In this document: piece by piece, positions 9,277 through 32,223 of the stretch
Layout: every line of letters begins with the position of its first letter
Position numbering within the stretch: the stretch's first letter is position 1
Origin: Fidelibacterota bacterium
GTDB taxonomy: Bacteria; Fidelibacterota; Marinisomatia; SCGC-AAA003-L08; TS1B11
DNA length: 35,801 nucleotides
NCBI GenBank assembly: GCA_020355065.1
Contig: CP070656.1
Location: 2,698,599 to 2,734,399, forward strand
Direction of reading: 5' to 3'
Program-made: the position numbers and the translations under genes
The notes under the pieces: generated by a model
The model's database searches: none
Told to the model about the DNA's origin: nothing
The model's input: the letters and a program-made list of their open reading frames with translations, nothing else

Positions 9277-9284
9277 GAGGAGAT

Positions 9285-9290
9285 CCTCCT
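9285..9290 (-). promoter_or_regulatory. Shine-Dalgarno AGGAGG that decides a TTG start
   Basis: On the minus strand AGGAGG ends 8 nt before TTG at 9276-9274. Neither upstream in-frame ATG (9312, 9300) has a comparable site, and the protein from the TTG begins exactly where OSBS/NSAR homologues usually begin. Confidence 0.65.
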
Positions 9291-9392
9291 CGACGGTCAT
9301 AATCTGATGCACTGAAAGTTGCTGGTTTTGTTGAGTAGATTAAAGGCATTCTCGCATCAAATAGAAATTATAAGCTAGCGAAAAACCCTCCA

Positions 9393-9521: not shown

Positions 9522-9749
9522 ATGTTGAGACAAATCATCCCTAAAGCTCTCACCCTGACGTTCCTTTTCAGCGGTTACTCTTGTATGCCAAAGCCTGCAC
9601 AGGTGAAGGCTGACTTGGTTTACAAGAATGGTCAGCTCTATACCGTGGATTCTGATCGGCGGACGGTTCGAGCCATGGTTAGTCCACACTCCATCCGCTC
9701 ATCAACGCTGGCCAGATCCGTGATAATCTATTGCATGGATAAGCGATAG
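9522..9749 (+). pseudogene. Truncated 5' stump of an amidohydrolase (YtcJ-like) lipoprotein gene
   Basis: The frame starts at ATG 9522 behind TAGGA and gives a lipoprotein-type signal sequence (LTLTFLFSGYSC). The opening of an amidohydrolase_3 domain follows (ADLVYKNGQLYTVDSDRRTV); members continue for ~500 more residues with metal-binding His motifs. Here the similarity stops after about residue 50 (near 9680). The frame then runs 20 more codons of unrelated sequence into the 3' end of the convergent gene. I see no continuation in other frames, so the body of the gene was deleted. A recruited short lipopeptide is possible but unlikely. Confidence 0.65.
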
Positions 9750-11608
9750 TGAATCTTGATCTTGGATTCCTTCTCCTGTAGTGGGACTTCGAGGACGATG
9801 GGAAAGGCTTTTATGGAAGGGTAGATAGAATAGAACCGTTCTTCATCCTCTCCCAACGTGAGTGTCACATTCCCCTCGAACACCTCGAAACGAAATGTCC
9901 TTTCGGTACCCCGGATATCTACGGTACGGTCGTTCACTTCGTGAAATTCCATGCCGGGCTGTTCGACGATGGGCTCAACAATGCGCACGGTTGGCCTGGC
10001 TCCGTGATATCGCAGCTCGACCCGTTTATCCACCGCATGATCCGATATGGTATGCTCCCAGGTGTAGGCCACACCTCCGGGCAGGAGATTCCTGTCCGTC
10101 AGTTCACCGGAAGTGGAGACGAGAGCGATAATCCCTACCTGCTCTGGAGTCACCGTCAACCTGCCATCGTACTCATACAGGTTCGTGAAGTAGCCGTTCT
10201 CGTCAGTGAATTCGATCCGGGGTGTCAGGCAGTGAGTGCTGTCGAGCTCCGGGAAGTGCATCGGTTCCCAGCGGTGGTATTCGGTCTGGCTCGAGATCTG
10301 GAGGAATCCATGGTCCTCTACCCAGAGGTTTGAGATGGAGCCCCCTGCAGGACGATGCATGTACTTGCTGTTGTACGTCCGTTTTAGATCCTTGTAGCGG
10401 TAGGCGGTGATGGTGGTCAGCAGATTCTCGGACCGCACCAGCACCACATCCACGGTGGGGAAATGCCTGAACCAACCGCTTTCCTCAGTGGGCAGAAGTG
10501 CCAGTGGACCTGGTCCCTGATCGCCCATCGCCACTGCCATCGCCAGGTTCTTCGATCTGGCGAAGGTGGGATAGATACAGGGAGGTCCATCGAAAAGTTG
10601 CCCGTAATGGGGACCATATCCGATCAAGCCGTTCTTGATCATCGTGCGGAGGTATTCCAGGTTCTTCATTGCCGCCGTCCGGCAGCGGGGATCTTCATGA
10701 GCGAACAGGCTAAACAGGATTTGGCAGCCGTCAGCAGTGGCGCTACCGTAGGTGGTCCACTTGTTGGAGCGGATCCCCCAGGAGCCATCGATGGCGCCGT
10801 TGGGATAGACAAAGTACAAGTGTTCCGCGAGGGAATGACGGACGGTTTCCAGTACCTCCTGATCGCCCACCTCCAGTGCATACAACGCCAAGCCCCATAA
10901 TGACATGTCGATCTCATAGCCCACGTCAGCCCCGTACTTGTTGCCGTAGATGCGTCCGCCTTCCGCGTGGATGAAGCCCGCGGCATCCATTTTTGACAGG
11001 ACCTGGGCCGCCAGATCCCTCGCTTTTTCGACGTACCGTTGGTCCGGAAAGTAGCGGTGGGTCATGACCAGTGAAGCCGTCGTGGTGGCGCAGTAGTTGA
11101 TACTGGCGAAACCGGGGCTCATCATTCTCACGAGATAATCGGCCGCTGCGCGAATCGACCGCTCCCAGGTCTGCCGCTCCGCTATGCTCAGGCTATCTTT
11201 GATGATGGGAAACGTCAAAGCCATCATCAGCAATTGATCAGTGGTCGTACCGGTCCATTCTTCCGGGGTTTCCTTCCATTCGCCGCCGGGCTGCTGCTGC
11301 CGGATCAGCCAATTCCCCAGCAGGACGGCTGCCTGAAGATAGCCCGGATCACCGGTCTGTTGATAGGTGACGGCAAAGGGGTAGACCGCCTCAGCAGCCC
11401 GGGTGTGGTACACATTGCATCTGGGGCAGGTAAGCGCTCCATAATCGGGATTTGCAGGATCCGTGACCTGCACCTCAACCAGACGATCCACCAGCTGGCG
11501 AAGGGTCTCGGAACACTCTGCCCGCAGGTCAACCGGCTCTGCGGATTCCCGGCAACTGCCAATCGCCAGTATGAGTAACGCACTAGTAGCCAGTATAGAT
11601 TTTTTCAT
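9728..11608 (-). CDS. Lipoprotein with (alpha/alpha)-toroid and C-terminal beta-sandwich; polysaccharide-lyase-like, unassigned
   Basis: A 626-residue lipoprotein: MKKSILATSALLILAIGSC, lipobox Cys at 19. Start ATG 11608 is set by AAGGGGA 7 nt upstream. Residues ~30-390 contain helical-hairpin repeats with aromatic-rich loops (AEAVYPFAVTYQQTGDPGYLQAA, GNWLIRQQQPGGEWKETPEEWTGTTTDQLLMM, FASINYCATTTASLVMTHRYF). The region after ~400 is beta-rich (VDVVLVRSENLLTTITAYRYKD, GGSISNLWVEDHGFLQIS). This layout resembles heparinase II/III or other toroid-plus-sandwich lyases. A pair of Cys in LTCPRCNVYHTRAAEA may bind a metal or form a disulfide. I cannot assign a CAZy family. It is the last gene of the minus-strand cluster, after another toroid lipoprotein. 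Confidence 0.85.
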   Translation of the reverse strand: MKKSILATSALLILAIGSCRESAEPVDLRAECSETLRQLVDRLVEVQVTDPANPDYGALTCPRCNVYHTRAAEAVYPFAVTYQQTGDPGYLQAAVLLGNWLIRQQQPGGEWKETPEEWTGTTTDQLLMMALTFPIIKDSLSIAERQTWERSIRAAADYLVRMMSPGFASINYCATTTASLVMTHRYFPDQRYVEKARDLAAQVLSKMDAAGFIHAEGGRIYGNKYGADVGYEIDMSLWGLALYALEVGDQEVLETVRHSLAEHLYFVYPNGAIDGSWGIRSNKWTTYGSATADGCQILFSLFAHEDPRCRTAAMKNLEYLRTMIKNGLIGYGPHYGQLFDGPPCIYPTFARSKNLAMAVAMGDQGPGPLALLPTEESGWFRHFPTVDVVLVRSENLLTTITAYRYKDLKRTYNSKYMHRPAGGSISNLWVEDHGFLQISSQTEYHRWEPMHFPELDSTHCLTPRIEFTDENGYFTNLYEYDGRLTVTPEQVGIIALVSTSGELTDRNLLPGGVAYTWEHTISDHAVDKRVELRYHGARPTVRIVEPIVEQPGMEFHEVNDRTVDIRGTERTFRFEVFEGNVTLTLGEDEERFYSIYPSIKAFPIVLEVPLQEKESKIKIHYRLSMQ

Positions 11609-11699
11609 TGGTCGTCCCCTTATTCCTGAGGTAGGGTATAAGATCGAGTAGTCATAGGCAAAGGTTATCACCCTTCGGCCACGTTACACCCCGGATGTC

Positions 11700-12965
11700 C
11701 TACTCCCGGCCAAATGCGTACTCGTAGTAATCGCATAGGAAGCGCACACCGAAGGCGGTACCCACGTCACGATGGATCAGCAGCACGCCGTTCTCCTTTT
11801 TCTTGGTCCGCAGCTCGGGGAAACCTCCCGCCAGGTTCTTGTCGGGATGATCCTGTGGGTATCTGTTTTCCAGAATCCACCTTAGTGAACGATCGACGTT
11901 GGCCTCGAACTCTGTTCCGACACCGTATTGCAGCAGACGGAGCCAGAGAATCCCGGCAAAGGCGACGGTCGAGCCGCTGATGGAGTAAGGATCGACGGAT
12001 CCATCCAGGAAGTTTCGATAGTAGAAGGTCCCATCTTCCTTTTGAAACCTGGTATAGAATCGCGCGGTCTTCAAGGCAGCATCCAGATACCTTTTGTCCT
12101 GCGTGAGGTCGTAGCCTTCTAGAAGTGACTCGGCGTACCACAGATTGAAGCGGGGGTGAAAATAGCCCTTCTCCTTGTTATTCGGTGTGAAATCCATCCA
12201 GATCCCTTCGGGTCCCTGCTTCTCTATGAGGCTCTCGCAGATCTCCAGAAACAGGTCCCGGTACTTCTCATTGCCGGTATACTCGTAGATATCCTTATAA
12301 AGCGAGCCTTCATTGTTAGGCCGGGCGACATCGTTCAGGGTCTGGGCGTCTTTCTCCTCCCAGAACGGGCTCCACTCCTTCATCACCGCGCCGGTTTCAG
12401 GATCGACGGCATCGTAGAACATCCGGCTGTTGGGTTCCCACATATGGGCATACATCCAATCACCGGCCCTGGTGGGGACGCTGGCGTAGCGTTCGTCACC
12501 GGTCAGGTCGTAAAGCCTGAAGAGCCCGGCGGTACCGTCAGTAACCGTAGCGAAGATAATATAATCCACACCGGCACCATGAATTGCCTTGACCATGCCC
12601 TCCAGCTGCGGATGGTCTTTGATCTCCAGGCTCAACCACCAGTCGCCCGCCTTCTTCGCTGTCCTGAGATAACCCTTGCTGCCGGTTGCCTCGTATGCTC
12701 TCGTTAGGGCATAGATTATCTGTCCGGTGTGCCAGGCCGGTTCGTAATCCTGCCACTTGCCTTCCAGGATCGAATACTCGCAGCGGCTCTTGCCATTCTC
12801 ATCTAGGAGTACATGGACAGCATAATCCGCGCCTGCGCGAATCGCACCCTCAATCTGGCCTCTGAGATCAGGCTGGCCTGCTCCACACGCTACTGACAGG
12901 ATGAGAATGGTGAAAAGGAGAACGAAGTGAACTGTCGGCTTCTGCCGGTTCCAGGTATTGGGCAT
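11700..12965 (-). CDS. Six-hairpin-like (alpha/alpha)-barrel lipoprotein, unassigned glycan enzyme
   Basis: A 421-residue lipoprotein: hydrophobic segment VHFVLLFTILILSVAC, Cys 27. The mature part consists of repeated helical hairpins with Gly/Trp/Tyr-rich turns (PAWHTGQIIYALTRAYEATG, AGDWWLSLEIKDHP, AGDWMYAHMWEPNSRMFYD, FNLWYAESLLEGYDLTQDKRYLDAALKTARFYTRF). This is typical of six-hairpin glycosidases, GH88/GH105-like hydrolases and some lyases or epimerases. It lacks the WGRxNGW signature of the GH105-like gene in the same cluster. AAGGGA lies 6 nt before the ATG. It is 38 nt downstream of the Nramp-like gene and precedes a second lipoprotein, so these are probably one operon. Specific reaction not known. 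Confidence 0.85.
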   Translation of the reverse strand: MPNTWNRQKPTVHFVLLFTILILSVACGAGQPDLRGQIEGAIRAGADYAVHVLLDENGKSRCEYSILEGKWQDYEPAWHTGQIIYALTRAYEATGSKGYLRTAKKAGDWWLSLEIKDHPQLEGMVKAIHGAGVDYIIFATVTDGTAGLFRLYDLTGDERYASVPTRAGDWMYAHMWEPNSRMFYDAVDPETGAVMKEWSPFWEEKDAQTLNDVARPNNEGSLYKDIYEYTGNEKYRDLFLEICESLIEKQGPEGIWMDFTPNNKEKGYFHPRFNLWYAESLLEGYDLTQDKRYLDAALKTARFYTRFQKEDGTFYYRNFLDGSVDPYSISGSTVAFAGILWLRLLQYGVGTEFEANVDRSLRWILENRYPQDHPDKNLAGGFPELRTKKKENGVLLIHRDVGTAFGVRFLCDYYEYAFGRE

Positions 12966-13003: not shown

Positions 13004-14251
13004 CTAGAGCAACCCTCTGATCCCGACTATGCCGGTGACCGCCATGAAGACGGTGAAGAGGAGGATGGCTCCTACCAGGAGATTGAAACCCGGACCGGGC
13101 CGATGCGAGCCCATCACCCCCTGCTTGTTCTGCAGAATGAGCATGCACAGCACGATGACCGGGGTCGCCACGGCCGCCAGCACCTGGGAGACGATCATGA
13201 TTAATACCGGCCTCATTCCGAGGATGGGGACCACCAGTCCCAGGCTGGTGGTGAACAGGGCGATCATCCGGTTGGAGGTCTTGCGCATATCGCGGGGTTG
13301 ATTCCGGATGTCCGCCAGGAACCAGGGTGCCAGCAGGAGATGGGGGAAGAGCGAAGATAGTCCGGCGCTGACGATCCCGGCCACGAAGATGGAGATGGCA
13401 AACCGGCCGGCCAGCGGCTCCAGCAGTTTCACCATGGTGATGGCATTATCGACCTCCAGGCCGAGCGGATGGAGTGTCCCGGCGGCGGCAGCCATGATAG
13501 CGGCGCTCAGCAGGAACATAACTGCGGCGGAGATCAGGGCGTCCCGCCGCTCCTGCCGTAAATCGCTGACTCCCCAGCCCTTCTCCTTCACCAGGATGGA
13601 CCTGACCAGGTACAGGACTCCGCCCATGGTGGTACCTACCATGCCTGCGATGAGGAGGGCGGCGTTGGACTCCTGCGGCAGGCGCGGCACGAGTCCGCGG
13701 ATGACTTCCATGGGATCGGTAATGACCATGAACATGGTCAGGATGAAACTCAAGCCCATGAGCGCCACGAAGATCATCAGTATCTGCTCGAAGAAGCGAT
13801 GCGAGCCTTTCCAGAACAGGTAGTAGATCAATGCGCCGAAGAGGACACTCAAGAGGATCATGCTGATGCCTTCACCGGAGGGGGTGAAGGGCCGTGACCA
13901 TTCCTTCACGACTTCGGTGATAACCCCCATGACTCCCATGAACGCCACCCATTCACTGAAAACGACGGAGATCAGGATAAAGGCTGCCACTCCGGTGCCA
14001 AAATGGTTTCGGAAGCTGAACAACGCGGTTTCGCCCGTGACCGCGGTGTATTTGCCGAAGGCAATGATGAGAACGAACGTGAAGATACACGATAGCAGCA
14101 GCGGCCACACGAACATCATCCCGTACGTGGCACCTGTGGAAGCGGCCGTGGTAACACTTCCGGTGCCGATATTATACCCGATCAGAAAGATCCCCGGCGC
14201 AATGGATGCGAGGAACAGGCTGATCTTTTTCCAGCTGAGATTCCCAAGCAT
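13004..14251 (-). CDS. Divergent Nramp-like inner-membrane transporter lacking canonical metal ligands
   Basis: A 415-residue, ~11-helix membrane protein that follows the Nramp/LeuT layout. TM1 begins APGIFLIGYNIGTGSVTT at residues 18-35 and TM6 carries GTTMGGVLYLV near 206-216. In true Nramp divalent-metal transporters TM1 has DPGN and TM6 has MPH. Here DPGN is replaced by the NIGTGS stretch (27-32) and MPH by MGG (209-211), so the metal-coordinating Asp, Asn and the gating His are absent. It lies among glycan-degradation genes. I infer that it carries something other than Mn2+ or Fe2+, perhaps an organic acid or sugar, or has a structural role. It begins 53 nt after the 858-residue gene, with GGGG 7 nt before its ATG. 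Confidence 0.82.
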   Translation of the reverse strand: MLGNLSWKKISLFLASIAPGIFLIGYNIGTGSVTTAASTGATYGMMFVWPLLLSCIFTFVLIIAFGKYTAVTGETALFSFRNHFGTGVAAFILISVVFSEWVAFMGVMGVITEVVKEWSRPFTPSGEGISMILLSVLFGALIYYLFWKGSHRFFEQILMIFVALMGLSFILTMFMVITDPMEVIRGLVPRLPQESNAALLIAGMVGTTMGGVLYLVRSILVKEKGWGVSDLRQERRDALISAAVMFLLSAAIMAAAAGTLHPLGLEVDNAITMVKLLEPLAGRFAISIFVAGIVSAGLSSLFPHLLLAPWFLADIRNQPRDMRKTSNRMIALFTTSLGLVVPILGMRPVLIMIVSQVLAAVATPVIVLCMLILQNKQGVMGSHRPGPGFNLLVGAILLFTVFMAVTGIVGIRGLL

Positions 14252-14304: not shown

Positions 14305-16881
14305 TCAAAGCGGTTCGATTCGCAAGTGGACCAGTTCCCGCCCCGGTAGTGTGATTCCGATCCGTTGACCGCGATTGCTGATCTCAATCAGCTGGGACTT
14401 GGTCTTCTTATTCTCTCGATGAAGACTCAGACGGTATACGCCCGGATCAAGACGCCATAGTCGCGCGGTGATCTTCACCTTCCGCCTGCTGTGTGAGAAC
14501 AGGTCGACGGCAAGAGCCTGTTGATGGGCGTCGGTTACCAGTGCCGTGAAGTTCCTATCGGTATCTTCCCAGGTGACGTGCCCGAACGGCGATGCTCCTT
14601 CCGAGGCGCCCGATCCGGTGAGCATGGCTTTCAGGTGGTCATGTCCTGGCATGTAGACTCGATCTGTGTGTAGTACTTCTGTCGTACGTAGCGGGCGATT
14701 GTGGCGGAGCTGATCCAGTAGCGGTTCGAGACCAGCTACCAGTTGTCGTTCATCCCCCGTGATCCGGTACCGGGCATACGAGCTGCCGAAGCGGGTGATG
14801 AGGTCATCGAAACGGTCGTCCTCTGTTTCCAAACGCCAGCACTCGACCACGTTCCAGAAATCGTCGCTTTCCAGCAGCTCCAGCGCAGCCCACTCTACTG
14901 TTCCGGGAGGGTAAGCAGGCCGGCCATGCTCGCGCTCTGCCTGAACCAGGTCGTGCACCAGTTCCAACGAGAGGGTAATTGGGGACAGCAGCTCCTCATT
15001 GCCGGTGAGTATATATGTGAACAGCAACTGGTCCATGAGCATGGTGCCGTGATTGTGGTCCCAGTCGAAGTAGTTCCAGTACATATTCGCTTCAAACCAG
15101 TTGGCCTCATCACCATTGATGGCGCCGTCGCTGGCGCGGTAGGAGGCGGGTATGATCCCCAGCGGCTTACCCTTGTCGGTCTTCATGGCGGCGGCCACCC
15201 AACCCAGCGACCATGCTTCCAGGGCTCTGGTAACCGCTTCGTCTCCGGTGATAAAGGCCAGGTAGCGCACGGTCTTGACCGCCCGGGTGTTCATCTCCAG
15301 GTCCCGGTCGCGTGGCGGCCGCGCATCGACTTCCGTGGAACTGAACCACGCGGATTTGAAATACCGGTACCCCTCCTCGGTCACTGTTGTCCAGGGACCC
15401 AGGAAATAATCCGTAGAGTATCGCAGCCGGTCCACATAGAGAGGATCATCCAGGTACAACGCCAGTTCGGGTGCGGTGTCGGAAATGTATTCGGAAGCGT
15501 GTTCCACATCGAGAGGCCGCCTCGAATACCCTGCATGCACTTTGGGACTGCTCCAGGCGGCATCCGCCAGTTTACGCCAACCCTCTCTGGCTTCCAGATC
15601 TCCTGCTGCCAATAGGGGAGACCACCAGCGTAGCAGCTCTACATCATCACCGATCTTGCCGCCGAATTCACCGTTCTCAGCTTGACGCTCATCCACCCAC
15701 CACTCGATCTCATCCCGCATCCGGCACAGGACCTGCCGTTGGGAATGGGACCAGTCCGGGGCACCGGAAGTCGGCTGTAACACATCGCAGACACTGGGTA
15801 CTTCAACCATGGCACCACTATACATGGTGAGTAGCTGGTCGTCCGGGTAGAGATGTGCCAACGCCTGAATATCCCGGCTGGCGGAACTGGCCTCCCAGGG
15901 GCCTCCCCGCTCCAAGTCCAGCCAGTATAGCATCCGCGCACGGTGGAACAGGGCACGTTCATACAGCGGATTATCCTGGGCTTCCGCATAACCCAACAGA
16001 CCATCCAGCAGCATCACGATCTGGAAGTAGCGGTCGAACAGGCCCAGCCCGACCTCGGTATTGGCCCACTCCCAGCCCATCATCCGCAATAGATCTTCCG
16101 CCTGGATCAAAATGCTGAGCTGCTCGTTCCAATAGGCGGCGAACGAATTCGATTCGTCAGCGCCTGGATCATCCTCGAGTTCCACCAGCAACGGACGCAG
16201 CCGGTCCGGTCCTTCACCGTCTGCGACCATCTGGTCCAAGGCCAAGTGCTGGCCATAGGTGCCCAACTGCTTCAGATGATTCAGGAAGGACACCTGGGAG
16301 GTACTTATCGGTTCTGCGTAAGGGATCAGGCTCAGTCCCAGCAGCTGCACCTCGTCGGATTGTGATCGGAAAGCCAGTTCAAGCCCCGCCTTGTCCAACG
16401 TCAGCAACTGGTGGTACACCCGGTAATTGACCAGTGGATTTGTACGTCCCTCTGCCGGGGGATTGAACGCTTGCCAGACAGGGCTGATCTGGTGTTTGTT
16501 TGCCGTGATGATGAGCGTGCTGGAGTCTTCCATTCCGGCATTGAACCAGGCGGTGATCCCCCAGGTCCCTTCAGGAAGATCGATTTTGAATACCAGTTCT
16601 TTTCCCGCAACGCCGTCGATAGTAAGGGCATCACGGGAACGGCTCCAGGTGTCGTCTCGCAGAGTGCGCACTGGGACTGTCAGCCATCCGAAACCTCGCT
16701 CGGGCATGTACATGTCTTCCGGTGTCAGCTCCGCCATACGTACAGCAATTTCCGAGTCCGCCGGGCCCATGTCGAAACGCCATGGTTGCACCGTCATCTC
16801 CGATCCCATGATCAAGACCGGTAAGCAGAGCATAGTCAGCAGCTGTGGCTTTGGGAGTAAACCGTTGTATCGCGATCTCAT
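14305..16881 (-). CDS. Large secreted protein: N-terminal galactose-binding-like domain plus (alpha/alpha)-barrel region; candidate lyase/hydrolase
   Basis: 858 residues with an N-terminal hydrophobic export sequence (LLTMLCLPVLIMGS). Residues ~33-190 open with a FDMGP ... LTPEDMYMPERGFGWL pattern like the galactose-binding-like domain seen at the N-terminus of some rhamnogalacturonan-active enzymes. Residues ~200-740 are helical with aromatic repeats, including EWWVDERQAENGEFGGKIGD near 400 and NWFEANMYWNYFDWDHNHG near 620, rich in Asp/His/Trp that could form an active-site cleft. A short beta domain ends the protein. I do not recognise the catalytic family. The ATG overlaps, as ATGA, the stop of a degraded upstream reading frame, so the gene was once translationally coupled to a lost partner. 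It is followed at 53 nt by the Nramp-like gene. Confidence 0.85.
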   Translation of the reverse strand: MRSRYNGLLPKPQLLTMLCLPVLIMGSEMTVQPWRFDMGPADSEIAVRMAELTPEDMYMPERGFGWLTVPVRTLRDDTWSRSRDALTIDGVAGKELVFKIDLPEGTWGITAWFNAGMEDSSTLIITANKHQISPVWQAFNPPAEGRTNPLVNYRVYHQLLTLDKAGLELAFRSQSDEVQLLGLSLIPYAEPISTSQVSFLNHLKQLGTYGQHLALDQMVADGEGPDRLRPLLVELEDDPGADESNSFAAYWNEQLSILIQAEDLLRMMGWEWANTEVGLGLFDRYFQIVMLLDGLLGYAEAQDNPLYERALFHRARMLYWLDLERGGPWEASSASRDIQALAHLYPDDQLLTMYSGAMVEVPSVCDVLQPTSGAPDWSHSQRQVLCRMRDEIEWWVDERQAENGEFGGKIGDDVELLRWWSPLLAAGDLEAREGWRKLADAAWSSPKVHAGYSRRPLDVEHASEYISDTAPELALYLDDPLYVDRLRYSTDYFLGPWTTVTEEGYRYFKSAWFSSTEVDARPPRDRDLEMNTRAVKTVRYLAFITGDEAVTRALEAWSLGWVAAAMKTDKGKPLGIIPASYRASDGAINGDEANWFEANMYWNYFDWDHNHGTMLMDQLLFTYILTGNEELLSPITLSLELVHDLVQAEREHGRPAYPPGTVEWAALELLESDDFWNVVECWRLETEDDRFDDLITRFGSSYARYRITGDERQLVAGLEPLLDQLRHNRPLRTTEVLHTDRVYMPGHDHLKAMLTGSGASEGASPFGHVTWEDTDRNFTALVTDAHQQALAVDLFSHSRRKVKITARLWRLDPGVYRLSLHRENKKTKSQLIEISNRGQRIGITLPGRELVHLRIEPL

Positions 16882-17075: not shown

Positions 17076-18899
17076 TCAATCATGCCACTTGGATATCTCC
17101 ACACCGGCGATGATCATCGATCCTAATCCACGCGGATCGTGGTCAAAGGTAGGCCGGTCGTAGTAAAATTGAAAATCTTCCCCTATCCCGGTACCGCGGC
17201 AGATCCCATGGACGGTTCCGTCGGCCTCTACCTTCCCGGAGAGGGCTTCCCACCCTTTCAGCGCAATGGACCGATAAGCATCGTCCAACCACCCAAGCTG
17301 CACTCCCCGCGCCATGGCCAGTACGAACATGCTGGTGCAGGATGTTTCCTCATAGGATTGGGGGTGGTCAAGGATCTGGTGCCACATACCGCTCTCTTGA
17401 TCCTGGTACCGCGTCAGGCCCGCCATGTGTTTGCGAAAGAGTTCCAAGATCAAGGCGTACTTGGGGTGATCCTCAGGTAGATGCTTCAGCGTTTCCGCTG
17501 TCGCCCAACTGACCCAGCCGTTGGCGCGCCCCCAGAAAGCGATGGATCGTTCACCGGTGGGCTCAAACCAGCCGTGCTTGTACAAACCGGTCTCTTCTAC
17601 GAAAAGCAGGTCAGCGAAGTTGACCACTTGCCGTGCGGCATCATCGTAGTACGATGGATCACCCGTCAGTTGCCCCATGCGCAGGAGGTAGGGCACGCTC
17701 ATGAACAGGTCATCAGCCCAGACGGTGTAGGGGACGGGCTCCGGCCGGCAGAACGTACCGTTTTCCAGCCGGACCTGCTGATGCGTGATATAATCCGCCA
17801 CCGGGTAGACAATCTCTTCATAGGCTGCCGTTTGATCACGGATGGATAGCTCCAGAAACGGCAGCGCTGGTGCGCCGGTATCATCGAGCATCGTGCGCCT
17901 GAAGAGTCGATGGAAACTACCCCGGAACGCATGCAGCTCGGTGTACTGCCACTGAAAGTACGCGTAATGCTCCATGATGAAATCACAGTAGCGCTGGACG
18001 AAGTCCCGGTAGCGGTTATCCCCGGTGGCATCCGCCAAGGCCAGGATGCTCCGCATGGTCGCACCATGTGAGTAGTGCCAGTCGTTATAAGCCCAGCGCG
18101 GGTAGTCGCTGGTCAACTTCCACAGCCGGGACTGCACCGGTGTGACCCAGGTATACCCGTTCAGGTTCTCTTCGTGAACTTCCCCAGAGAGAAAGTCCAC
18201 CTCGATCTTAAAGGGACGGTCCAGCATTGCAGTAAGGGAGCTGCCTTCAGCTGCCAGAAAAGGTCCCAGGCAAAGCCATTGAGTTTCGGCCGGTTCGATA
18301 GCGACGGATTCCTGCGTGAAGGAAACGGCCCTTTCCAGATCACCGTCGGGATTAATGGGGCGCAGGAAGAAGATCCAGGGGTGATCTTGGGCGGCGACCT
18401 TCACCAGAATAGGATTGGTGCCCGTACGTAGCTTAACCGAAAACGTGTCCTGAAAGGCAAAGCGATCGTAGGCGATTTCGGTTAATTCAGGTTTTCTGCG
18501 CTCATTCCAGCGATAAGCCAGGCTGCTGTTGAGGAAAACCTTGATACCGTCGCCGGCACTGACCCCGAATGTGATGGTAGTGTCATGATCGCTCACCACA
18601 TTGCTGAGAGCGTACCCGACACCCGGGCCGTCGGTTCCGAACATCCGGCGGAAATCGACCAGCTCCACCCCCAGAATCCCTTCCTGGGGCACAGACTCAA
18701 ACTCGAAGGTTGTCCCTTCGATAACCTTGTCGGCTATCGCGGTGGCGATCTCGAGCGGTGTCCGGGTAGGTTCTGATCCCGTACAGGCGGGTAAGATCCA
18801 CAGCCAGAGTAGCATGCTGCTCAGAGGTAATAGCCCAACCATAGGCCTAAGGGACCATCCCAGCTTCAGGCGTGAAGAAAGCAGATGAGCAATTCGCAT
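17076..18899 (-). CDS. GH105-like unsaturated uronyl hydrolase (lipoprotein with N-terminal accessory domain)
   Basis: 607 residues. The lipoprotein signal ends LWLWILPAC (Cys 39). Residues ~45-260 are a beta-rich accessory domain containing an ITFGVSAGDGIKVFLNSSLA stretch like those of sugar-binding PA14-like folds. Residues ~270-607 are an (alpha/alpha)6 barrel with GH105 landmarks: YTVWADDLFMSVPYLLRMG (DD 396-397), GLYKHGWFE (His 442), FWGRANGW (456-462), MWHQILD and the closing GLGSMIIAGVE. GH105/GH88 enzymes hydrate the 4,5-double bond of delta-4,5-uronyl ends made by polysaccharide lyases and so release a 5-keto uronate. This implies that a lyase acts in the same pathway, possibly one of the toroid proteins next to it. 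GH88 is the alternative family. The lipid anchor puts it in the periplasm or at the surface. The start has only a weak ribosome site. Confidence 0.85.
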   Translation of the reverse strand: MRIAHLLSSRLKLGWSLRPMVGLLPLSSMLLWLWILPACTGSEPTRTPLEIATAIADKVIEGTTFEFESVPQEGILGVELVDFRRMFGTDGPGVGYALSNVVSDHDTTITFGVSAGDGIKVFLNSSLAYRWNERRKPELTEIAYDRFAFQDTFSVKLRTGTNPILVKVAAQDHPWIFFLRPINPDGDLERAVSFTQESVAIEPAETQWLCLGPFLAAEGSSLTAMLDRPFKIEVDFLSGEVHEENLNGYTWVTPVQSRLWKLTSDYPRWAYNDWHYSHGATMRSILALADATGDNRYRDFVQRYCDFIMEHYAYFQWQYTELHAFRGSFHRLFRRTMLDDTGAPALPFLELSIRDQTAAYEEIVYPVADYITHQQVRLENGTFCRPEPVPYTVWADDLFMSVPYLLRMGQLTGDPSYYDDAARQVVNFADLLFVEETGLYKHGWFEPTGERSIAFWGRANGWVSWATAETLKHLPEDHPKYALILELFRKHMAGLTRYQDQESGMWHQILDHPQSYEETSCTSMFVLAMARGVQLGWLDDAYRSIALKGWEALSGKVEADGTVHGICRGTGIGEDFQFYYDRPTFDHDPRGLGSMIIAGVEISKWHD

Positions 18900-18978: not shown

Positions 18979-20691
18979 CTAGGCACCCACGATTGAAAAG
19001 AGCCACATCATCACGATGAAGAACAAGACGATGCCCGCTCCTGAGAGGAAACCCAGGATATCGGTTCTGTAGCGCGACCAGGAAAATTTCTTCGGCAGGG
19101 AGAGGAGATCGACGATCAGCAGCCCATCCTCACCCTCATGGCTGAAGAGCCACTTCACAATCCATGACTTCTTCGAATCCACTGCCTTCTTGCTCTGGGA
19201 TAATCCCTCGAGTTTAATCTCGATATTCACGTCCCTCAGCCTCTGTTCCTCGCCAACCGGAGTATTCAGCAAGGTGTAGAATTTACGCAGCTGTCCCTCC
19301 GGTTCTGAGCGCGTGAATCGGCTCACCACTACCATGACCACCAGTCCGACTGGCAGGTAGGCCGCGATTTGATACTGAACGGGAAGGTCGAGCTGGAACT
19401 GGACGTATAACGACACCGCCACCATGCTTAGGGTGCTCACCAACGCGCCGTAGCGGTTCGCCCGTTTCCACATGACACCCAGCCAGAATGCGATCCCGAG
19501 ATAGGCAGTGACCTTCCACACTTCCATCAAGCCCTGCACCACGCTGGGGAAATTGAAAGCGAAGAACAAACCACCGGCCACGATGAATAGGGAGGTAACC
19601 CGTCCCACACGCAGCAGGGTTTTATCGGAGGCAGTCTTGTTAAAGTAGGGCAGGTAGATGTTGCGTGTGAACAGCGCTGCGGCGTGGACCATGAAAGCAT
19701 CGCAGGTGGACATGACGGCGGCGGTCATGGCCGCGATCATCAAGCCCACCAGTCCCACCGGCAGCAGGTTTTTGGCGGCCAGCCCGAAGGCCAACTCCCG
19801 CTCTTCAAATCCCAGGCCCGGATAAAGAAAGGCCGCGAACACGCCGATGAAAGCCCATCCCATGGTGGCGAACCGCTTGAGGAAATTACCGTAGGTCCAA
19901 CCGGTCCGGCAGGCGATCTCCGTTTTGCCCGAGCCGCCAATAGCCATATGATGGGGCTGCACCACCACTCCTACCAGTCCGTTAATGACGATCATGATAA
20001 TGAAGAACAGCGTGACCTCATGGGGTGCCACCAGGCTGAACATGTGTTCCGGCAGGCCCTCATGGAAAGCACTCATGCCGCCGGCCGCCGAGATCGCAAA
20101 GGGGATCAGCATAAATGACATTACCAGGATCAGCACGCCCTGGATCAGGTCGGTGATTACTGCCGCTACCAACCCGCCGGCCAGGCCGTAGATCACAAAC
20201 ATTACCGTGGCCACCAGGATGGTCGGCTCTTCAGGTATGGTGCCTCCGGTGAGCCCCTCGATGGTCACACCCGTCCCCTTGAGCATGATACCGATATCCA
20301 TGCAGAAATACACGATTCCCATCACCGTATACAGGATCGCTAGAGTGGAACCGTAGCGCTCCTGGAAGAAATCGGCCATGGTGACGTAGCGGAGCCGGCG
20401 GTAGATGGGCGCGATGATCCAATAGAACGGGGTGGAAAACAGCCACATCCACTGATACCAGATCCCGGCCAAGCCGGTGGTGTAGGAAGCTCCCGCGACC
20501 GAAACCGGCTGGTCGGTGTGTGTCCCGGCGCCAAAAGCTTGGGCTACCATCAGGATCTTCCCGAAACGGCGGTTCGCCATGAAAAAGTCACTCGATGAGG
20601 CGATCTGCTTGTGCGTCCAGAATCCAAGGATCACGATACCGACGAAGTACGTCAGCAGAACGATCAGGTCCAGTGGTGCTATCCCAAGCAT
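18979..20691 (-). CDS. SSS-family sodium/solute symporter
   Basis: A 570-residue polytopic protein of the solute:sodium symporter family. It has the first-helix region LDLIVLLTYFVGIVILGFWT followed by SSSDFFMANRR, the GAGTHTDQPVSVAGASYTTG loop, TMADFFQERYG, and the YGLAGGLVAAVITDLIQGV segment in the middle of the protein. The MIAAMTAAVMSTCDAFMVHA stretch contains the Na2-site Ser/Thr region. About 13-14 helices are visible, with a long polar stretch (~435-525) before a last C-terminal helix. Family members take up sugars, uronates, sialic acid or small acids with Na+. Its place between beta-glucuronidase and the GH105-like gene suggests a uronic-acid-containing mono- or disaccharide (inference). 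Start ATG 20691 has only a distant GGAAGG. Confidence 0.9.
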   Translation of the reverse strand: MLGIAPLDLIVLLTYFVGIVILGFWTHKQIASSSDFFMANRRFGKILMVAQAFGAGTHTDQPVSVAGASYTTGLAGIWYQWMWLFSTPFYWIIAPIYRRLRYVTMADFFQERYGSTLAILYTVMGIVYFCMDIGIMLKGTGVTIEGLTGGTIPEEPTILVATVMFVIYGLAGGLVAAVITDLIQGVLILVMSFMLIPFAISAAGGMSAFHEGLPEHMFSLVAPHEVTLFFIIMIVINGLVGVVVQPHHMAIGGSGKTEIACRTGWTYGNFLKRFATMGWAFIGVFAAFLYPGLGFEERELAFGLAAKNLLPVGLVGLMIAAMTAAVMSTCDAFMVHAAALFTRNIYLPYFNKTASDKTLLRVGRVTSLFIVAGGLFFAFNFPSVVQGLMEVWKVTAYLGIAFWLGVMWKRANRYGALVSTLSMVAVSLYVQFQLDLPVQYQIAAYLPVGLVVMVVVSRFTRSEPEGQLRKFYTLLNTPVGEEQRLRDVNIEIKLEGLSQSKKAVDSKKSWIVKWLFSHEGEDGLLIVDLLSLPKKFSWSRYRTDILGFLSGAGIVLFFIVMMWLFSIVGA

Positions 20692-20741: not shown

Positions 20742-22547
20742 CTACGATCCGGACTTCTCACCGGGAATTGATTTCGAGCACCAACGGTCACGAATGGCGA
20801 ATGCTACCTGCTTCGGCTCACGTTGACGATTGAAAACTCCCTTCTTGTTCAGAATAATCCGCCGGTGGTGCTGGGCGGTCCTGAAATCGGCGAAGTTCCA
20901 GATGTGCTCTCCGATCATAAAAGGCAGGGAATCGATGACCTTAAAATATTCTGCCAGGAGCAGACTCTGGTACTCCTCAGTGAACATCTGAGGATACGTG
21001 GCATGTTGGCCTTCGATGGTGTCTGCGCCGAATTCGGACAATAGAATAGGTTTCCCGTAGCGTTTGTACAAGCCCTCCAGTTCACTCTTCAGCTGCACAA
21101 CAGCTTCATCGACCTTGACCGGGATCTCGTACCATCCCCAATAGCGGTTGACGGAAATAAAATCGGAATAGAGGTAGGCCGGATCCACATCCCTGGTCTG
21201 TACACAGGTCGGAAGAGTAATCGGACGGGAATCATCCAGTTCTCTGGTATGTTGGAATATATCCTTCCAGTATCCGATCCCTTTCTCGGTGACGGCTTCC
21301 GCTTCTCCCCAGATCCCGGCTTCATTACCTACACTCCACGCGATGACGGAGGGATGGTTCCGGTCGCGAGTGATCAGTTCGGTCAACGCCTGCTTGTGCT
21401 GTTGCAGGGTCTGATCGGTAGCGTACTTCAGATTGAGACTCACAGCAGGTACTTCATCAACGACCAGGAATCCCATCTGGTCAGCCAGCTGCATGAGCTC
21501 GTCAGCGTACGGGTAGTGGGAGGTGCGGAACGAGTTAGCACCGATCCAGTTCATCAGCTGGAAATCCTTCACCACCAGGGGATAGGAGAATCCCTTTCCC
21601 AGAACGGGAAAATCCTCATGCTTCCCGAATCCCTGGAGGAATACCGGTTTCCCGTTCAGGAGCAATTCCTTGCCCTCGACAGTAATTTCCCGGATGCCCA
21701 CCTCGAGTTGGTATTCATCCAATAAGGTATCCCCATCCCTCAAGCTGAGGTGTAGCCGATAGAGGTGGGGGGACTCGGGTGACCAGAACCTGCATTCAGG
21801 TATCTGCATCTCTCCGGTGCAGGAGAGGTCGCCCTGTGCGACTTCTTGCGAAGCGATGGATCGGTCGCCGTCCCCTAAGACTGCCTTGATCGCGGCTCCC
21901 GGCATCTCTTCTGACAAAGTCGCTGCGAACTTGAGCTGACCGGCTTTTTCAACGATCCGGGTCTGCACGCGAATAGCACTGATATACTGGGGTGGCAGGG
22001 CCAAGAGTTTCACTGGACGGGGAATACCACCGTAGGGGAAGAAATCGAAATTGGCCGGAGGGAAGGTTTGATCGCGCTCCTTCCCGAAATCCGCGTAATC
22101 CTCCTCGCTGACACCTTGGGGGATCGTATCATGGCTCAAGACATTGTTCGCCCTGACAACCAGGACGTTCTCACCTTCCCATTGTACCAGATCAGTGATA
22201 TCGAGCTCGAAAGGCAGGAAGCCACCGCGATGTTCGCCGGCAGATTCGCCGTTCACCCATACGGTTGCATGGTGATCCACCGAGCCGAATCTGAGTATTA
22301 GCTTTCGACCAGTCCAAAAAGTGGGTAGCGTGAAATGCGTCTGGTACCAGACCGAGCCGATGTAGTTCATAAGCCCCAGCTCAGAGAGCTGCTCATTCCA
22401 GCTGCCCGGTACTCCAGCACAGAGGTCGGTGGCGATACCGCGGGACCAACCATCCTCCAGCCCGCGTTCAGCTGCATCGACCTTTAAATCCCAGAAACCG
22501 GATAGATCCATCACGGTTCGGCAACGATTATTCTGTGGATAGAGCAT
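20742..22547 (-). CDS. uidA: Beta-glucuronidase, glycoside hydrolase family 2
   Basis: 601 residues, the usual length for bacterial GUS, with no signal peptide, so cytoplasmic. Domain order: jelly-roll sugar-binding (to ~180), Ig-like (~185-290), TIM barrel (~295-590). The catalytic acid/base is E409 in SVGNEAG and the nucleophile is E505 in LLSEFGADT. The NxK pair that recognises the glucuronate carboxylate is present as NKKGVFNRQREPK (N567, K569), close to N566/K568 of E. coli GUS. This makes beta-glucuronidase more likely than beta-galactosidase. It cleaves beta-D-glucuronides after uptake. An intact copy 50 nt before the symporter suggests an operon. The start lacks a good ribosome site. 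Confidence 0.9.
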   Translation of the reverse strand: MLYPQNNRCRTVMDLSGFWDLKVDAAERGLEDGWSRGIATDLCAGVPGSWNEQLSELGLMNYIGSVWYQTHFTLPTFWTGRKLILRFGSVDHHATVWVNGESAGEHRGGFLPFELDITDLVQWEGENVLVVRANNVLSHDTIPQGVSEEDYADFGKERDQTFPPANFDFFPYGGIPRPVKLLALPPQYISAIRVQTRIVEKAGQLKFAATLSEEMPGAAIKAVLGDGDRSIASQEVAQGDLSCTGEMQIPECRFWSPESPHLYRLHLSLRDGDTLLDEYQLEVGIREITVEGKELLLNGKPVFLQGFGKHEDFPVLGKGFSYPLVVKDFQLMNWIGANSFRTSHYPYADELMQLADQMGFLVVDEVPAVSLNLKYATDQTLQQHKQALTELITRDRNHPSVIAWSVGNEAGIWGEAEAVTEKGIGYWKDIFQHTRELDDSRPITLPTCVQTRDVDPAYLYSDFISVNRYWGWYEIPVKVDEAVVQLKSELEGLYKRYGKPILLSEFGADTIEGQHATYPQMFTEEYQSLLLAEYFKVIDSLPFMIGEHIWNFADFRTAQHHRRIILNKKGVFNRQREPKQVAFAIRDRWCSKSIPGEKSGS

Positions 22548-22672: not shown

Positions 22673-23827
22673 TCAACGCAACACATTGACATCAGCGCTA
22701 GTGGCTCTCGATGATTCATCCACCGGATTTCGCCGGGCACCACACGATTCACGAACGACCAGCCTTGGTTCCAGGAACGTGCGTGTCACTTCTTCATCCC
22801 CCTCGATCTTTCTGATGAGAGTTTCCAGCGCAGCTATACCGATTCTTCTCGTCGGTTGATGGATCGTCGTAAGCGGCACGGGTGCGTGTAAGTCCCGCTC
22901 GATATCATCGAAACCGACAATGGATATATCATCGGGTACCCTCAATCCTTGCGAGAGCACAGCCGCCTCAAAACCCAGTGCCGAAAGATCGTTGTAGGCA
23001 AATAATGCATCAGGTCTTCGATTCAGTCCGGCGATATGCAGACCGACTTGGTACCCACCTTTGTAATGATCCGATTGGTATGGCATGGGTATCGGGTACA
23101 CAAAGTCTTCGTTAAGAGACCGGCCGTGCGTATCCAATGCTCGTACATATCCCTGCTGGCGCAATTCGCCGAGGACATTCCCCTCTTCACTATTCAGATA
23201 CCCGACCCGTTCATTTCCCAGGTTGATAAGATGCTCCGTAGCCAGATAGGCACCATGTTCGTGATCCGTTCCCACGTAGTTAACATCTTCATTCTGCACA
23301 AAGGATACCATTACGAAAGGAAATTTCTCTTTCTGGAGCTCCAGTATCTTTGGCGTGGCTCGATGTAAGTAGCTCATCGAGGCAATGATCATGCCGCTGA
23401 CCCCAAAATCACGAAGCCGGGAAATTTGGGTCTCTTCCCGCTCTTCGCGATCACGGCTGCTCGAGATCAGGAGGTTATAGCCAAGCTCCGAAAGCTTCTC
23501 TTCCACGCTGTGTACAATCAGCGAGAAAAAGGGATCCTTCAAATCCCGGAGTACCAGGCCGATGGTCTGTTGTGCTGCTGGATCGGTCGTCTTGCGTTTT
23601 TGGGCTACGAATACGCCTTTGCCTACCCGGCTGTACAAAAGGCCTGAATTGATCAATTCAGCTCTGGCTTGCTTGACCGTAAGCAAACTTACGCCATACT
23701 CCCGTGATAGTTCGTTCTGGGAGGGGATCTTATCACCCGGTTGTAGCTCTCCTGAGGAGATTTGCCGTTTGATATCAGCAATGATCTGGCGGTATAGTGG
23801 CGTGGGATTGTGGATATCAATGGCCAT
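22673..23827 (-). CDS. GntR-LacI hybrid transcriptional regulator (AraR-like)
   Basis: 384 residues. Residues ~8-77 are a GntR winged-helix domain (PLYRQIIADIKRQISSGELQ, PGDKIPSQNELSREYGVSLL, TVKQARAELINSGLLYSRVG). Residues ~88-365 are a LacI/periplasmic-binding-type ligand domain (QTIGLVLRDLKDPFFSLIVH, ERVGYLNSEEG, ALFAYNDLSALGFEAAV, DISIVGFDDIERD, PLTTIHQP). This architecture is that of AraR, a repressor released by a sugar. It stands between the beta-helix gene and the GH2 gene, so it is the probable local regulator. Candidate operators are the palindromes at 28746-28770 and 28953-28968. The C-terminal ~20 residues are poorly conserved and may be extended by local rearrangement next to the remnant downstream. 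Confidence 0.9.
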   Translation of the reverse strand: MAIDIHNPTPLYRQIIADIKRQISSGELQPGDKIPSQNELSREYGVSLLTVKQARAELINSGLLYSRVGKGVFVAQKRKTTDPAAQQTIGLVLRDLKDPFFSLIVHSVEEKLSELGYNLLISSSRDREEREETQISRLRDFGVSGMIIASMSYLHRATPKILELQKEKFPFVMVSFVQNEDVNYVGTDHEHGAYLATEHLINLGNERVGYLNSEEGNVLGELRQQGYVRALDTHGRSLNEDFVYPIPMPYQSDHYKGGYQVGLHIAGLNRRPDALFAYNDLSALGFEAAVLSQGLRVPDDISIVGFDDIERDLHAPVPLTTIHQPTRRIGIAALETLIRKIEGDEEVTRTFLEPRLVVRESCGARRNPVDESSRATSADVNVLR

Positions 23828-25728: not shown

Positions 25729-28623
25729 TTAAAATTTATACCGTATACCCAGATCGGCAGTCCAGCCAAACAACTCCTTGCTGGTTGTAAAGGGCCGGTC
25801 TTTTTTCCACAAATAAGCGCCTTCGGACCGATCGGTGATATTGTTCAGATCCAGATAGAGGCTAAACCCTTCGAAAAGCTCCTGCTGCATGGCAATATCC
25901 CAGCGAACAAAGTCATTATCGTATTCATCCAATTCTTCTCGCACGTCTACATTCCTCAGGATTTCTCCCTGGTAGATCATCGAGATCCGACCGCTGAAAC
26001 CGCCCTTCTCGTAGCCGATGGCCAAGTTGGCTATGTAGTCGGCCTGGCCGATCATGGGAGCGACCCTGACCGTATCAATGAAAATAGATCTGAAGAAGGG
26101 AGGCGGGCCTCTTTCAACGAGCAGAAATGGGTAATAAGTTTCAGAGAAAACGCGTGAATAATTGGCATAGATAACGATACCATCCAGAGGGCTGGGCAGC
26201 GATTTCAGATTGGTTTGAAGTTCGATTTCATAGCCACGTACTTGGGTTATATCATCTACATTTTCTGGCTGTATTATTGTATGTAGCTTTTCCAATCCGT
26301 ACTCTACTTTTTCTTCTGCTGAGACGCGGCGCGTTCTTATGTAGTCAACATCCTCAACTTCCTTTGCAAACACACCGACCGTGAAGAGCCCCAACCGATT
26401 GTAAATTGAGAAAAAGGCATCGTAATTCCAGCTCTTTACAGGACGGAGACCAGGATTCCCTTGAACAAGCAAGGTCCCTTCTTCTTTGAAAGACCGGTAA
26501 GGCACGAGATTATGATAGTCCGGCCGGGTGAGGGTTCTGGTAGCGGCCAGACGGATATCAGACCAGGTAGTGGGCCTGTATCGAATATGTAGCATCGGCA
26601 GCAACTCTTCATTAGTCTGCTGCCCCGTAGTATCGATAACGCCTCTCAGGAGCATCCTTTCTTCGTCGTCGGTAGTCACCGGAAGCGCATGGATGGTCTT
26701 ATATCTATTGATGGTTTGCTCGTAGCGTACACCCGGCAGAAACATCAGTCTTGGCCCGAGATTGAGCTCCATCATCACGTAACCAGCGGTTATCTTCTCG
26801 CCAGCCTCATAACTATCTATTAGAACATCCATTTCATATTCGTACAAAGTATCTGAAGGATCGTCATTAAAATACTCGTAGCGGTAGGTATGGAGAAAAT
26901 CATTGAGATTATCAACATCTAATCCCGGGCCAAACTCATATCTGCCTCCTAAAAAATCACCAGCCGTGTAATCGGGGTCAATATAATTCCCTAATGTAAT
27001 CCTCCCCTCTGAATCCAAATTCCAACGGTCGGGATATTTCGCAGGGAGGGCCTCGACGACTCCAAAATGGGATGTCGTAAACTCCGATGTTTCACGATCC
27101 CTGTTCTTGTCTCGAAATTTGCCGCCCATTTTAAAATAGCCGGCGATACCCTTCCCTAAAGCAAAAGGCATTTTAAGATCCAGCTGCGCAGTAAGGTTGT
27201 CGTCATTGATCCATTCTTGCTCCACGACACTATACTTGAAGAACGTTTCATCCTCCCGACTGTATGCAGCCTGAGGAATGAACTCCGGACCTTGATCTTC
27301 TATGAGGCTATCAGCATTAAAGCCGCTGAGTTCATAAAAGCGGACGGTGTGTGAAAAGGGTGTTTCCTGGGCAGTCTTTGAATATGAGGCCTGCCAACGC
27401 AGGTCTATATTCAGGCTTTTGGGAAGCAGGTTATGTTGCCCGCTTATCGAGTTGGCCGATAACCGCGTTTCCAGTTGACGATCCCTTAAAGTACGTTCCT
27501 GTCGAAAAGCACCAAGATTATACCTGCGTCTACGGCGCAATTCATCCCGGTCGGTCTGACCCCAGAAACTGTTGAAGAGTATTTCGCCATTTTCGAGGCC
27601 AAGGTCAAGCATGAGACTAGCACTATAGCGCTTACGTATTTCGAACCGGTCACCCAAGTTCAAACCATCAATAAGAACATTAGCGGTTCCATCCTCTTTC
27701 TCCCCGCTGATAAAATACCCGGCGTCCATGTAATCGGAACTACGATTGGCACGCTGCAAGCTTCCAGTCAGCATCACGCCGATCTTATTTTTCCAGTAGC
27801 GGTCACTGAGACTTACACTGCCCTTATATTGCCCGTATTCCTCCTCATGACCATTGTAACCGGTTTGAAGACGGGTATTTGTTCGGAATCCCTCGGGGGC
27901 CTTTCTGGTCACAAAGTTGACGGCCCCACCGACGGCATCGCCGTCCATGTCCGGCGTCAACGACTTGAATACCTCGATACCAGCCAACACATCCGGCGCG
28001 ATCATGCTAAGGTCCACCGAACGGTCCTCTGGGTCGGTGGACGGGATACGCTGACCATTAACTGTTATGGTATTGAACCGGGGCGACAACCCGCGCACGA
28101 CCACCTTCTGGCCTTCACCGGCGTCTCGCATAATCGATATCCCCGGCAGCCGGCCAACCGACTCGGCGGCGTTCTGGTCGGGCAACTCCATGATTTTATC
28201 CGCCGATACGATATTGACAATGGTGTTGGAAGCCAACTGCTGGTTGATCGCCTGGGCTTGGCCTTCCAGCAGTGCGGTAACCACCACCTCCCGGCCCTGG
28301 ATGACGGCGAAGGAGAGCTCGATGTTCAGTGCTACCGCTTGATTCTCCTCGATCGTGACCGGAAGGGTCTGGCTATCGTACCCAATGTAGGAGATATGAA
28401 GGGTGAACTCACCGGTAGGGATTTTCGAGATGGAGAAGAGACCGTCTCGATTCGTCGCTGCGCCCAGAGCTGTGCCTTCCAAGACCACATTCGCCCCCGG
28501 TAGAGGAGCACCCGTATCAGCATCTCGCACGGTCCCCGATATGGTTCCCGTCGCACCTGCAAGCAGGTGGACCGCGAAGAAAGAGATCAGTCCCAACTTT
28601 GCTAGATTGGATGTAGGTATCAT
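25729..28623 (-). CDS. TonB-dependent receptor, large sugar-uptake type
   Basis: 964 residues from ATG 28623 (AAGG 6 nt upstream; the TTG at 28629 touches the AAGG and is unlikely). It has a signal peptide (LGLISFFAVHLLAGATG), a carboxypeptidase-regulatory-like domain ~25-105 (ISGTVRDADTGAPLPGANVV ... GLFSISKIPTGEFTLHISYI), a plug ~125-235 (MELPDQNAAESVGRLPGISI, VVRGLSPRFNTITVNGQRIP, GDAVGGAVNFVTRKAPEGFR), and a barrel that ends in the terminal Phe of LGIRYKF. The plug matches the Xanthomonas/Caulobacter-type TBDTs (TIGR01782-like) used for large sugars. No SusD partner is near. A strong promoter and overlapping operator lie upstream. Composition is lower in GC than the enzymes to its left. 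Confidence 0.92.
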   Translation of the reverse strand: MIPTSNLAKLGLISFFAVHLLAGATGTISGTVRDADTGAPLPGANVVLEGTALGAATNRDGLFSISKIPTGEFTLHISYIGYDSQTLPVTIEENQAVALNIELSFAVIQGREVVVTALLEGQAQAINQQLASNTIVNIVSADKIMELPDQNAAESVGRLPGISIMRDAGEGQKVVVRGLSPRFNTITVNGQRIPSTDPEDRSVDLSMIAPDVLAGIEVFKSLTPDMDGDAVGGAVNFVTRKAPEGFRTNTRLQTGYNGHEEEYGQYKGSVSLSDRYWKNKIGVMLTGSLQRANRSSDYMDAGYFISGEKEDGTANVLIDGLNLGDRFEIRKRYSASLMLDLGLENGEILFNSFWGQTDRDELRRRRRYNLGAFRQERTLRDRQLETRLSANSISGQHNLLPKSLNIDLRWQASYSKTAQETPFSHTVRFYELSGFNADSLIEDQGPEFIPQAAYSREDETFFKYSVVEQEWINDDNLTAQLDLKMPFALGKGIAGYFKMGGKFRDKNRDRETSEFTTSHFGVVEALPAKYPDRWNLDSEGRITLGNYIDPDYTAGDFLGGRYEFGPGLDVDNLNDFLHTYRYEYFNDDPSDTLYEYEMDVLIDSYEAGEKITAGYVMMELNLGPRLMFLPGVRYEQTINRYKTIHALPVTTDDEERMLLRGVIDTTGQQTNEELLPMLHIRYRPTTWSDIRLAATRTLTRPDYHNLVPYRSFKEEGTLLVQGNPGLRPVKSWNYDAFFSIYNRLGLFTVGVFAKEVEDVDYIRTRRVSAEEKVEYGLEKLHTIIQPENVDDITQVRGYEIELQTNLKSLPSPLDGIVIYANYSRVFSETYYPFLLVERGPPPFFRSIFIDTVRVAPMIGQADYIANLAIGYEKGGFSGRISMIYQGEILRNVDVREELDEYDNDFVRWDIAMQQELFEGFSLYLDLNNITDRSEGAYLWKKDRPFTTSKELFGWTADLGIRYKF

Positions 28624-28745
28624 ACTCAACCTTGTTTGGTTTTCTTGATGTATGAAACTGAGATAGCTGGCGGGGGAGATGCTCGATCGAATTGAGCATC
28701 ACTGCTGGGCGCGTAGTCTATCCTGAGTTTGATATTAGAATAGAA

Positions 28746-32202: not shown

Positions 32203-32208
32203 CTTCGA

Positions 32209-32216
32209 CTCCCTTT
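32209..32216 (-). promoter_or_regulatory. Shine-Dalgarno AAAGGGAG that decides a TTG start
   Basis: It lies 6 nt before TTG 32202-32200 of the sulfatase gene. The upstream in-frame GTG at 32223 would place this site inside the coding region and has no ribosome site of its own. Confidence 0.55.
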
Positions 32217-32223
32217 GCTGCAC

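Follow-up and report, generated by a model that had tools for sequence, protein, structure and literature searches.

Described Nramp-type carriers with metal or proposed organic substrates

Canonical Slc11/Nramp proteins, which transport Mn2+/Fe2+ with H+ coupling, carry a DPGN motif in TM1, which supplies Asp and Asn ligands, and an MPH motif in TM6 with a Met ligand and a His. Both motifs are missing from a broad set of "Nramp-related" proteins, which published trees place as paraphyletic to the canonical Nramps (PMC12873925). Among them, EleNRMT transports hydrated Mg2+ and retains the TM1 Asp within a DxxG motif (PMC8806188). An organic substrate has also been proposed: PxpT of C. glutamicum, an Nramp-family protein 50% identical to B. 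subtilis YcsG, was required for growth on 5-oxoproline in deletion and complementation experiments, with metal transport left possible by the authors (PMC13274462). Conversely, YcsG/MntG has been reported to increase Mn levels in the cell and claimed to be a Mn importer (PMC10448178), and MumT, encoded in a urea operon, aids Mn accumulation (PMC5050338).

Here we describe a group of Nramp-related proteins that we call the IGTGS clade, defined by GTGS in TM1, GTT plus Arg217 in TM6 and membership in a single clade. Literature searches on Nramp proteins combined with GlcNAc, sugar transport, hydantoin or glycan loci returned no substrate or gene context for it. The "orphan outgroup" and "G-motif" groups resemble it in being paraphyletic to the canonical Nramps and in lacking DPGN and MPH (PMC12873925, PMC4072509, PMC10606218); this comparison is by published description only, and the groups may overlap.

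A full-length Nramp-fold carrier

We analyzed a stretch of 35,801 nucleotides (the window) from a 3.06-Mb Fidelibacterota genome. Among named relatives of this genome, the nearest are MAGs of Candidatus Neomarinimicrobiota, at 95% and 85% protein identity, and of KSB1, at 73-80%. The carrier gene is intact and encodes 415 residues. The protein and the segments discussed below are as follows.

13004..14251, (-): Nramp-related LeuT-fold carrier of the IGTGS clade, 415 aa (Pfam Nramp 182.8 bits; clade SH-aLRT 99)
14156..14167, (-): motif G29-T30-G31-S32 of the unwound TM1 segment, at the DPGN position (invariant in 34/34)
13913..13915, (-): TM3 acidic residue E113, a candidate coupling or substrate residue by inference (D/E in 33/34 clade members)
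13601..13636, (-): TM6 segment G206-T207-T208-M209-G210-G211-V212...R217, with G/V at the Met/His ligand positions and R217 invariant (alignments)

The product matched the Pfam Nramp profile (PF01566) over positions 1-354 of 357, far above the curated cut-off of 29.8 bits, which places it in the Pfam Nramp superfamily. In addition, a profile built from 29 clade sequences aligned end to end with solved Nramps, namely EleNRMT (7qia, 1e-41), 10ky (2e-38), which we take to be BfraNramp, and MntH (8e6i, 7e-27). These matches bear out the Nramp fold and helix pattern that a preliminary description of the window had read from the sequence. An AlphaFold2 model of the carrier generated from six close sequences had a pLDDT of 52 and a pTM of 0.57. 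The same genome encodes two further Nramp-type proteins (46% and 26% identity), neither of which has DPGN.

Replacement of the metal ligands by a conserved motif

The register of the ligand positions was set by two alignments, one to the HMMER profile and one made with MAFFT that included canonical DPGN proteins from these genomes. Both placed G29-T30-G31-S32 opposite D-P-G-N and G210-G211-V212 opposite M-P-H. The preliminary description had read NIGTGS and MGG at these sites; it was right in substance on the first, where the aligned tetrad is GTGS, and right about the ligand loss on the second, although its reading was one residue off from the aligned GGV.

Although alike in fold and length, the clade differs from canonical Nramp/MntH proteins (DraNramp, BfraNramp) at five positions. 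The equivalent of DraNramp D56, the TM1 Asp, is Gly in all 34 clade sequences, and that of N59 is Ser, so that GTGS stands at the DPGN position in 34/34. The M230 position holds S, G, A, F or T and Met in none, the H232 position A, V, S, G, I or P, and the MPH Pro between them is A, G, S, P or V; at H237 the clade has the invariant Arg217. In the same alignments, canonical Nramps of the same phylum retained D, N, M and H. The NRMT (Mg2+) signature, DxxG in TM1 with TxxA/T in TM6, was likewise not found, as TM1 reads GxxS without the Asp while T207 is present in TM6. EleNRMT, the best PDB profile match, thus shares with the clade the Nramp fold and the lack of canonical DPGN and MPH, but its TM1 aligned as DAGG, whereas the clade has GTGS, the invariant TM6 Arg and a setting in glycan and organic-acid loci.

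All known side-chain metal ligands are therefore absent from the carrier. The preliminary description had named the recovery of equivalent ligands by alignment as evidence that would speak against it, and none was recovered at the level of sequence profiles. GTGS, G206-T207-T208 and R217 were invariant in 34/34 clade sequences, and the TM3 acid at E113 was present in 33/34. Since the motif is invariant throughout the clade, chance or a frameshift was excluded as its origin. The conservation of the replacement residues indicates that the site is under selection for something other than metal.

The IGTGS proteins form a single clade

Further members came from searches of the window's phylum (100 genomes) and of the KSB1 phylum (82 genomes), the latter yielding about 26 places above 380 bits with a family profile. 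In a tree of 83 Nramp-type proteins, all 34 IGTGS proteins, including the window carrier, fell on one branch (SH-aLRT 99), separate from the canonical DPGN, NRMT, IGPGT, LGPGS, IGAGD, IGVSH and other types. The tree was made by a quick method, has some long branches and is unrooted, and only the unity of the clade is taken from it; being unrooted, it fits either a loss or an ancestral absence of the metal ligands. A scan of viral contigs for further relatives found none.

The carrier gene lies in a glycan locus

The carrier gene is part of a run of seven same-strand genes (22547 to 9728) separated by 28-194 bp, in the order GH2, SSF symporter, GH88, 858-aa exported protein, carrier, putative lipoprotein and exported protein. 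The genes of the locus other than the carrier are listed here.

9728..11671, (-): exported protein of unknown family (no Pfam/PDB match; homologues at L004 and L005)
11700..12965, (-): putative lipoprotein with weak C5-epimerase-C/GH127/GH88 similarity (lipoprotein signal by eye)
14305..16881, (-): exported protein of 858 aa and unknown family, encoded 53 bp upstream of the carrier (no Pfam/PDB match; homologue in L093)
17076..18899, (-): GH88 (unsaturated glucuronyl hydrolase family) with a lipoprotein-like N-terminus (PF07470, 273.8 bits)
18979..20691, (-): sodium:solute symporter (SSF), same directon (PF00474, 136.7 bits; SGLT relatives in the PDB)
20742..22547, (-): GH2 enzyme of the beta-glucuronidase type, in which no signal peptide was seen (NF007538, 596.7 bits, cut-off 544)
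22673..23827, (-): GntR/LacI-type sugar-sensing regulator
25729..28629, (-): TonB-dependent receptor
28977..30587, (-): sulfatase (PF00884)
30613..32223, (-): sulfatase (PF00884)

The locus additionally holds a GH28 gene. The glycan locus recognized in the preliminary description was thus confirmed by the GH88, the GH2 glucuronidase-type enzyme, the C5-epimerase/GH88-like protein, the two sulfatases, GH28 and the TonB-dependent receptor. The putative lipoprotein gene lies 38 bp downstream of the carrier gene, and a homologue lies near the carrier in five clade loci. The 9728-11671 and 14305-16881 products matched no Pfam, NCBIfam or PDB family, and their homologues recur in related loci; they are candidates for new families of polysaccharide-active enzymes.

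By eye, several of the locus enzymes have signal or lipoprotein-like N-termini, and the GH2 and MR/MLE-type enzymes have none. The products of breakdown would therefore arise on the outer side of the inner membrane, and the last step on a glucuronide may take place inside. The MR/MLE-type gene, of the enolase superfamily, lies beside the glycan locus (8173-9312, (-)). Its score nevertheless exceeded the o-succinylbenzoate synthase cut-off of NCBIfam, and it could serve menaquinone synthesis or encode a sugar-acid enzyme.

Clade members recur beside genes of glycan and organic-acid catabolism

We examined 38 clade loci. The neighbours differed by subclade, yet most belonged to glycan or organic-acid catabolism. 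A NagA-like GlcNAc-6-P deacetylase gene stood beside the carrier in seven loci and a NagB-like deaminase gene in six; one locus (L088) consists of a stand-alone Nramp-NagA-NagB run with gaps of 40 and 73 bp amid unrelated genes such as PheST, and another (L100) has the order NagA-Nramp-NagB. Elsewhere the carrier gene adjoined genes for alginate-lyase-family proteins (L091, L114), beta-helix proteins (L086, L123) or, at L110, a LarA-type hydroxyacid racemase homologue together with Gfo/Idh/MocA and sugar-isomerase-like proteins. GH88, GH2 and sulfatases were also among the neighbours, with sulfatases near seven clade loci.

Twenty seed neighbour proteins were taken from clade loci, and 28 other Nramp-type loci of the same phyla served as controls. 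Homologues of the seeds lay within two genes of the carrier in 27/38 clade loci and 2/28 control loci (p = 2e-7), a comparison biased by the choice of seeds from clade loci. Random genome stretches gave a background of 5 seed-family matches in 136 genes. Ten of the 38 clade loci had no seed-family match within four genes, one of them being the E. coli operon described below, which is outside the seed coverage. A Pfam-based count of the adjoining genes on the same strand, which is less biased, assigned about 34/106 in the clade and about 4/53 in the controls to sugar, glycan or solute-symporter families (p = 6e-4), these figures being sums of family counts among the 25 families listed and not per-protein counts; both p values are optimistic because loci within a subclade are related and not independent. 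No MgtE-like neighbour was present among the families listed beside clade members, and the 5-oxoprolinase genes pxpABC were absent from the window locus and from the 25 commonest families beside clade members. The gene-context evidence for an organic substrate is correlational. Together, the single clade and its recurrent organic-catabolism neighbours are the outcome of the phylogeny with locus context that the preliminary description had proposed as a check.

A predicted carrier of organic glycan-breakdown products

Taking motif and context together, we consider it likely that the window protein is an inner-membrane secondary carrier of the Nramp/LeuT fold that imports a small organic product of glycan breakdown rather than a metal. 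Its cargo is probably either a glucuronide disaccharide or a uronic acid, the latter in saturated or unsaturated form. Exported enzymes of the gene run would release this cargo outside the cytoplasm, and the apparently cytoplasmic GH2 glucuronidase would finish it after import. By analogy with LeuT-fold organic-acid carriers, the unwound TM1 G-T-G-S could offer backbone amides and hydroxyls where canonical Nramps have their metal-binding Asp and Asn; the invariant Arg217 in TM6, which occupies the DraNramp His237 position, is a candidate partner for a carboxylate or sugar, and the TM3 acid may provide coupling to H+ or Na+. For each subclade, we infer the substrate class from the same two lines of evidence. 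The preliminary description had argued for an organic substrate from ligand loss in a glycan locus. That argument is strongly supported clade-wide by the conserved motif and the recurrent catabolic neighbours, and gains from the pattern being shared by the whole clade rather than a quirk of one locus; PxpT provides a precedent (PMC13274462), and the setting of the IGPGT clade described below points the same way. It remains a reading of motif and context.

The main rival to an organic-solute carrier is a divalent-cation importer with an unusual site, comparable to EleNRMT with its hydrated Mg2+, which would supply cofactor metal to the neighbouring enzymes; we regard it as unlikely. NagA homologues are metalloenzymes, and the closest solved structure is that of a Mg2+ transporter. 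Furthermore, YcsG/MntG and MumT, which are Nramp-type proteins in metabolic operons, are claimed as Mn importers, and these reports count against an organic substrate (PMC10448178, PMC5050338). On the other hand, the TM1 Asp that EleNRMT keeps (PMC8806188) is Gly throughout the clade, and no carboxylate, Met, His or Cys is conserved at the clade's ligand positions. The sulfatases, lyases and lipoprotein enzymes among the neighbours look exported and would gain nothing from metal brought into the cytoplasm. Moreover, a canonical MntH is also present in E. coli.

The SSF symporter of the window operon could be the main sugar carrier, which counts against an organic substrate for the Nramp-type protein. 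The presence of this second transporter, along with the disappearance of the usual substrate- and proton-site residues, would fit a substrate sensor or degenerate carrier (a transceptor) retained in glycan loci. This is improbable, as the clade proteins are full length, have no signalling domain and keep a tightly conserved new site, and the Nramp-NagA-NagB run of L088 contains no other transporter. Slightly less probable still is the import or export of an inorganic anion such as sulfate freed by the locus sulfatases. The two sulfatases of the window, those near other clade loci and the invariant TM6 Arg are consistent with it, but sulfatases are lacking near many clade loci, among them several Nag clusters and the operon of E. 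coli, and sulfate was rejected as a shared substrate of the clade on this ground.

Possible organic substrates in other Nramp-related clades

Proteins of the IGPGT type adjoin hydantoinase/oxoprolinase genes, with no gap on haloarchaeal plasmids (L126-L128) and also in the KSB1 phylum (L135, L136), which suggests hydantoin or 5-oxoproline as the substrate. The LGPGS clade, with TTFVLH in TM6, has Gfo/Idh/MocA genes near two members (L116, L117), a 3-keto-disaccharide hydrolase gene at L117 and a GH44 gene at L122. PxpT, YcsG (MntG) and PxpG of the pxp operons resemble the IGTGS clade as Nramp-family carriers in operons for catabolism of an organic compound, but differ in operon and predicted substrate; they were compared with it by description only. 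Since PxpT/YcsG has already been proposed for 5-oxoproline (PMC13274462), the "new role for this family" in the preliminary description is better put as a new clade whose substrate class is likely to be new than as the first hint of organic transport. What appears new is that the organic role would extend to sugars and amino sugars, and to carboxylates in E. coli.

A broader proposal, to which we give even odds, is that the IGTGS proteins are an unrecognized Nramp-fold family for sugars, uronates, amino sugars and small carboxylates, the E. coli member included, and that together with the IGPGT and LGPGS clades and PxpT they reflect organic transport by much of the Nramp-related diversity; metal transport would therefore be a derived specialty within the family. 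If the clade does carry sugars and acids, several glycan and amino-sugar pathways would gain the uptake step they lack, and the origin of metal transport from organic-solute LeuT-fold carriers would become directly testable. The question also bears on the conflicting reports of YcsG/MntG as a Mn importer and as a 5-oxoproline carrier. Clade proteins are by default annotated "Nramp family divalent metal transporter", and many genome annotations would in that case be wrong.

A clade member in Escherichia coli

Between dnaB and qorA, the E. coli chromosome encodes a clade member that shares 44% identity with the window protein and bears the same RefSeq label. Its operon (L132:6001-11698 in strain SK1144) encodes an acyl-CoA:acetate/3-ketoacid CoA-transferase, an enoyl-CoA hydratase, the carrier and a fumarate-reductase-like FAD enzyme, and a LacI-family gene diverges from it. 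The CoA-transferase, hydratase and FAD enzyme suggest a small carboxylate as the cargo, and the operon offers a tractable system for the question of an organic role. Of 5,426 complete E. coli genomes, 825 (about 15%) gave a match to the locus, 546 of these covering at least 80% of the query. In E. coli STO_Bone7, the Nramp-type gene copy (L125:12001-13220), intact in other E. coli, is frameshifted; it lies on pBone7_3, an 834-kb "plasmid" record that bears the chromosomal genes dnaB, alr, qor and dusA. In the E. coli BRG214 chromosome (H41; NZ_CM188609.1, 2010138-2018900), an ISEcp1/CTX-M-14 unit lies within the matched stretch of the operon.
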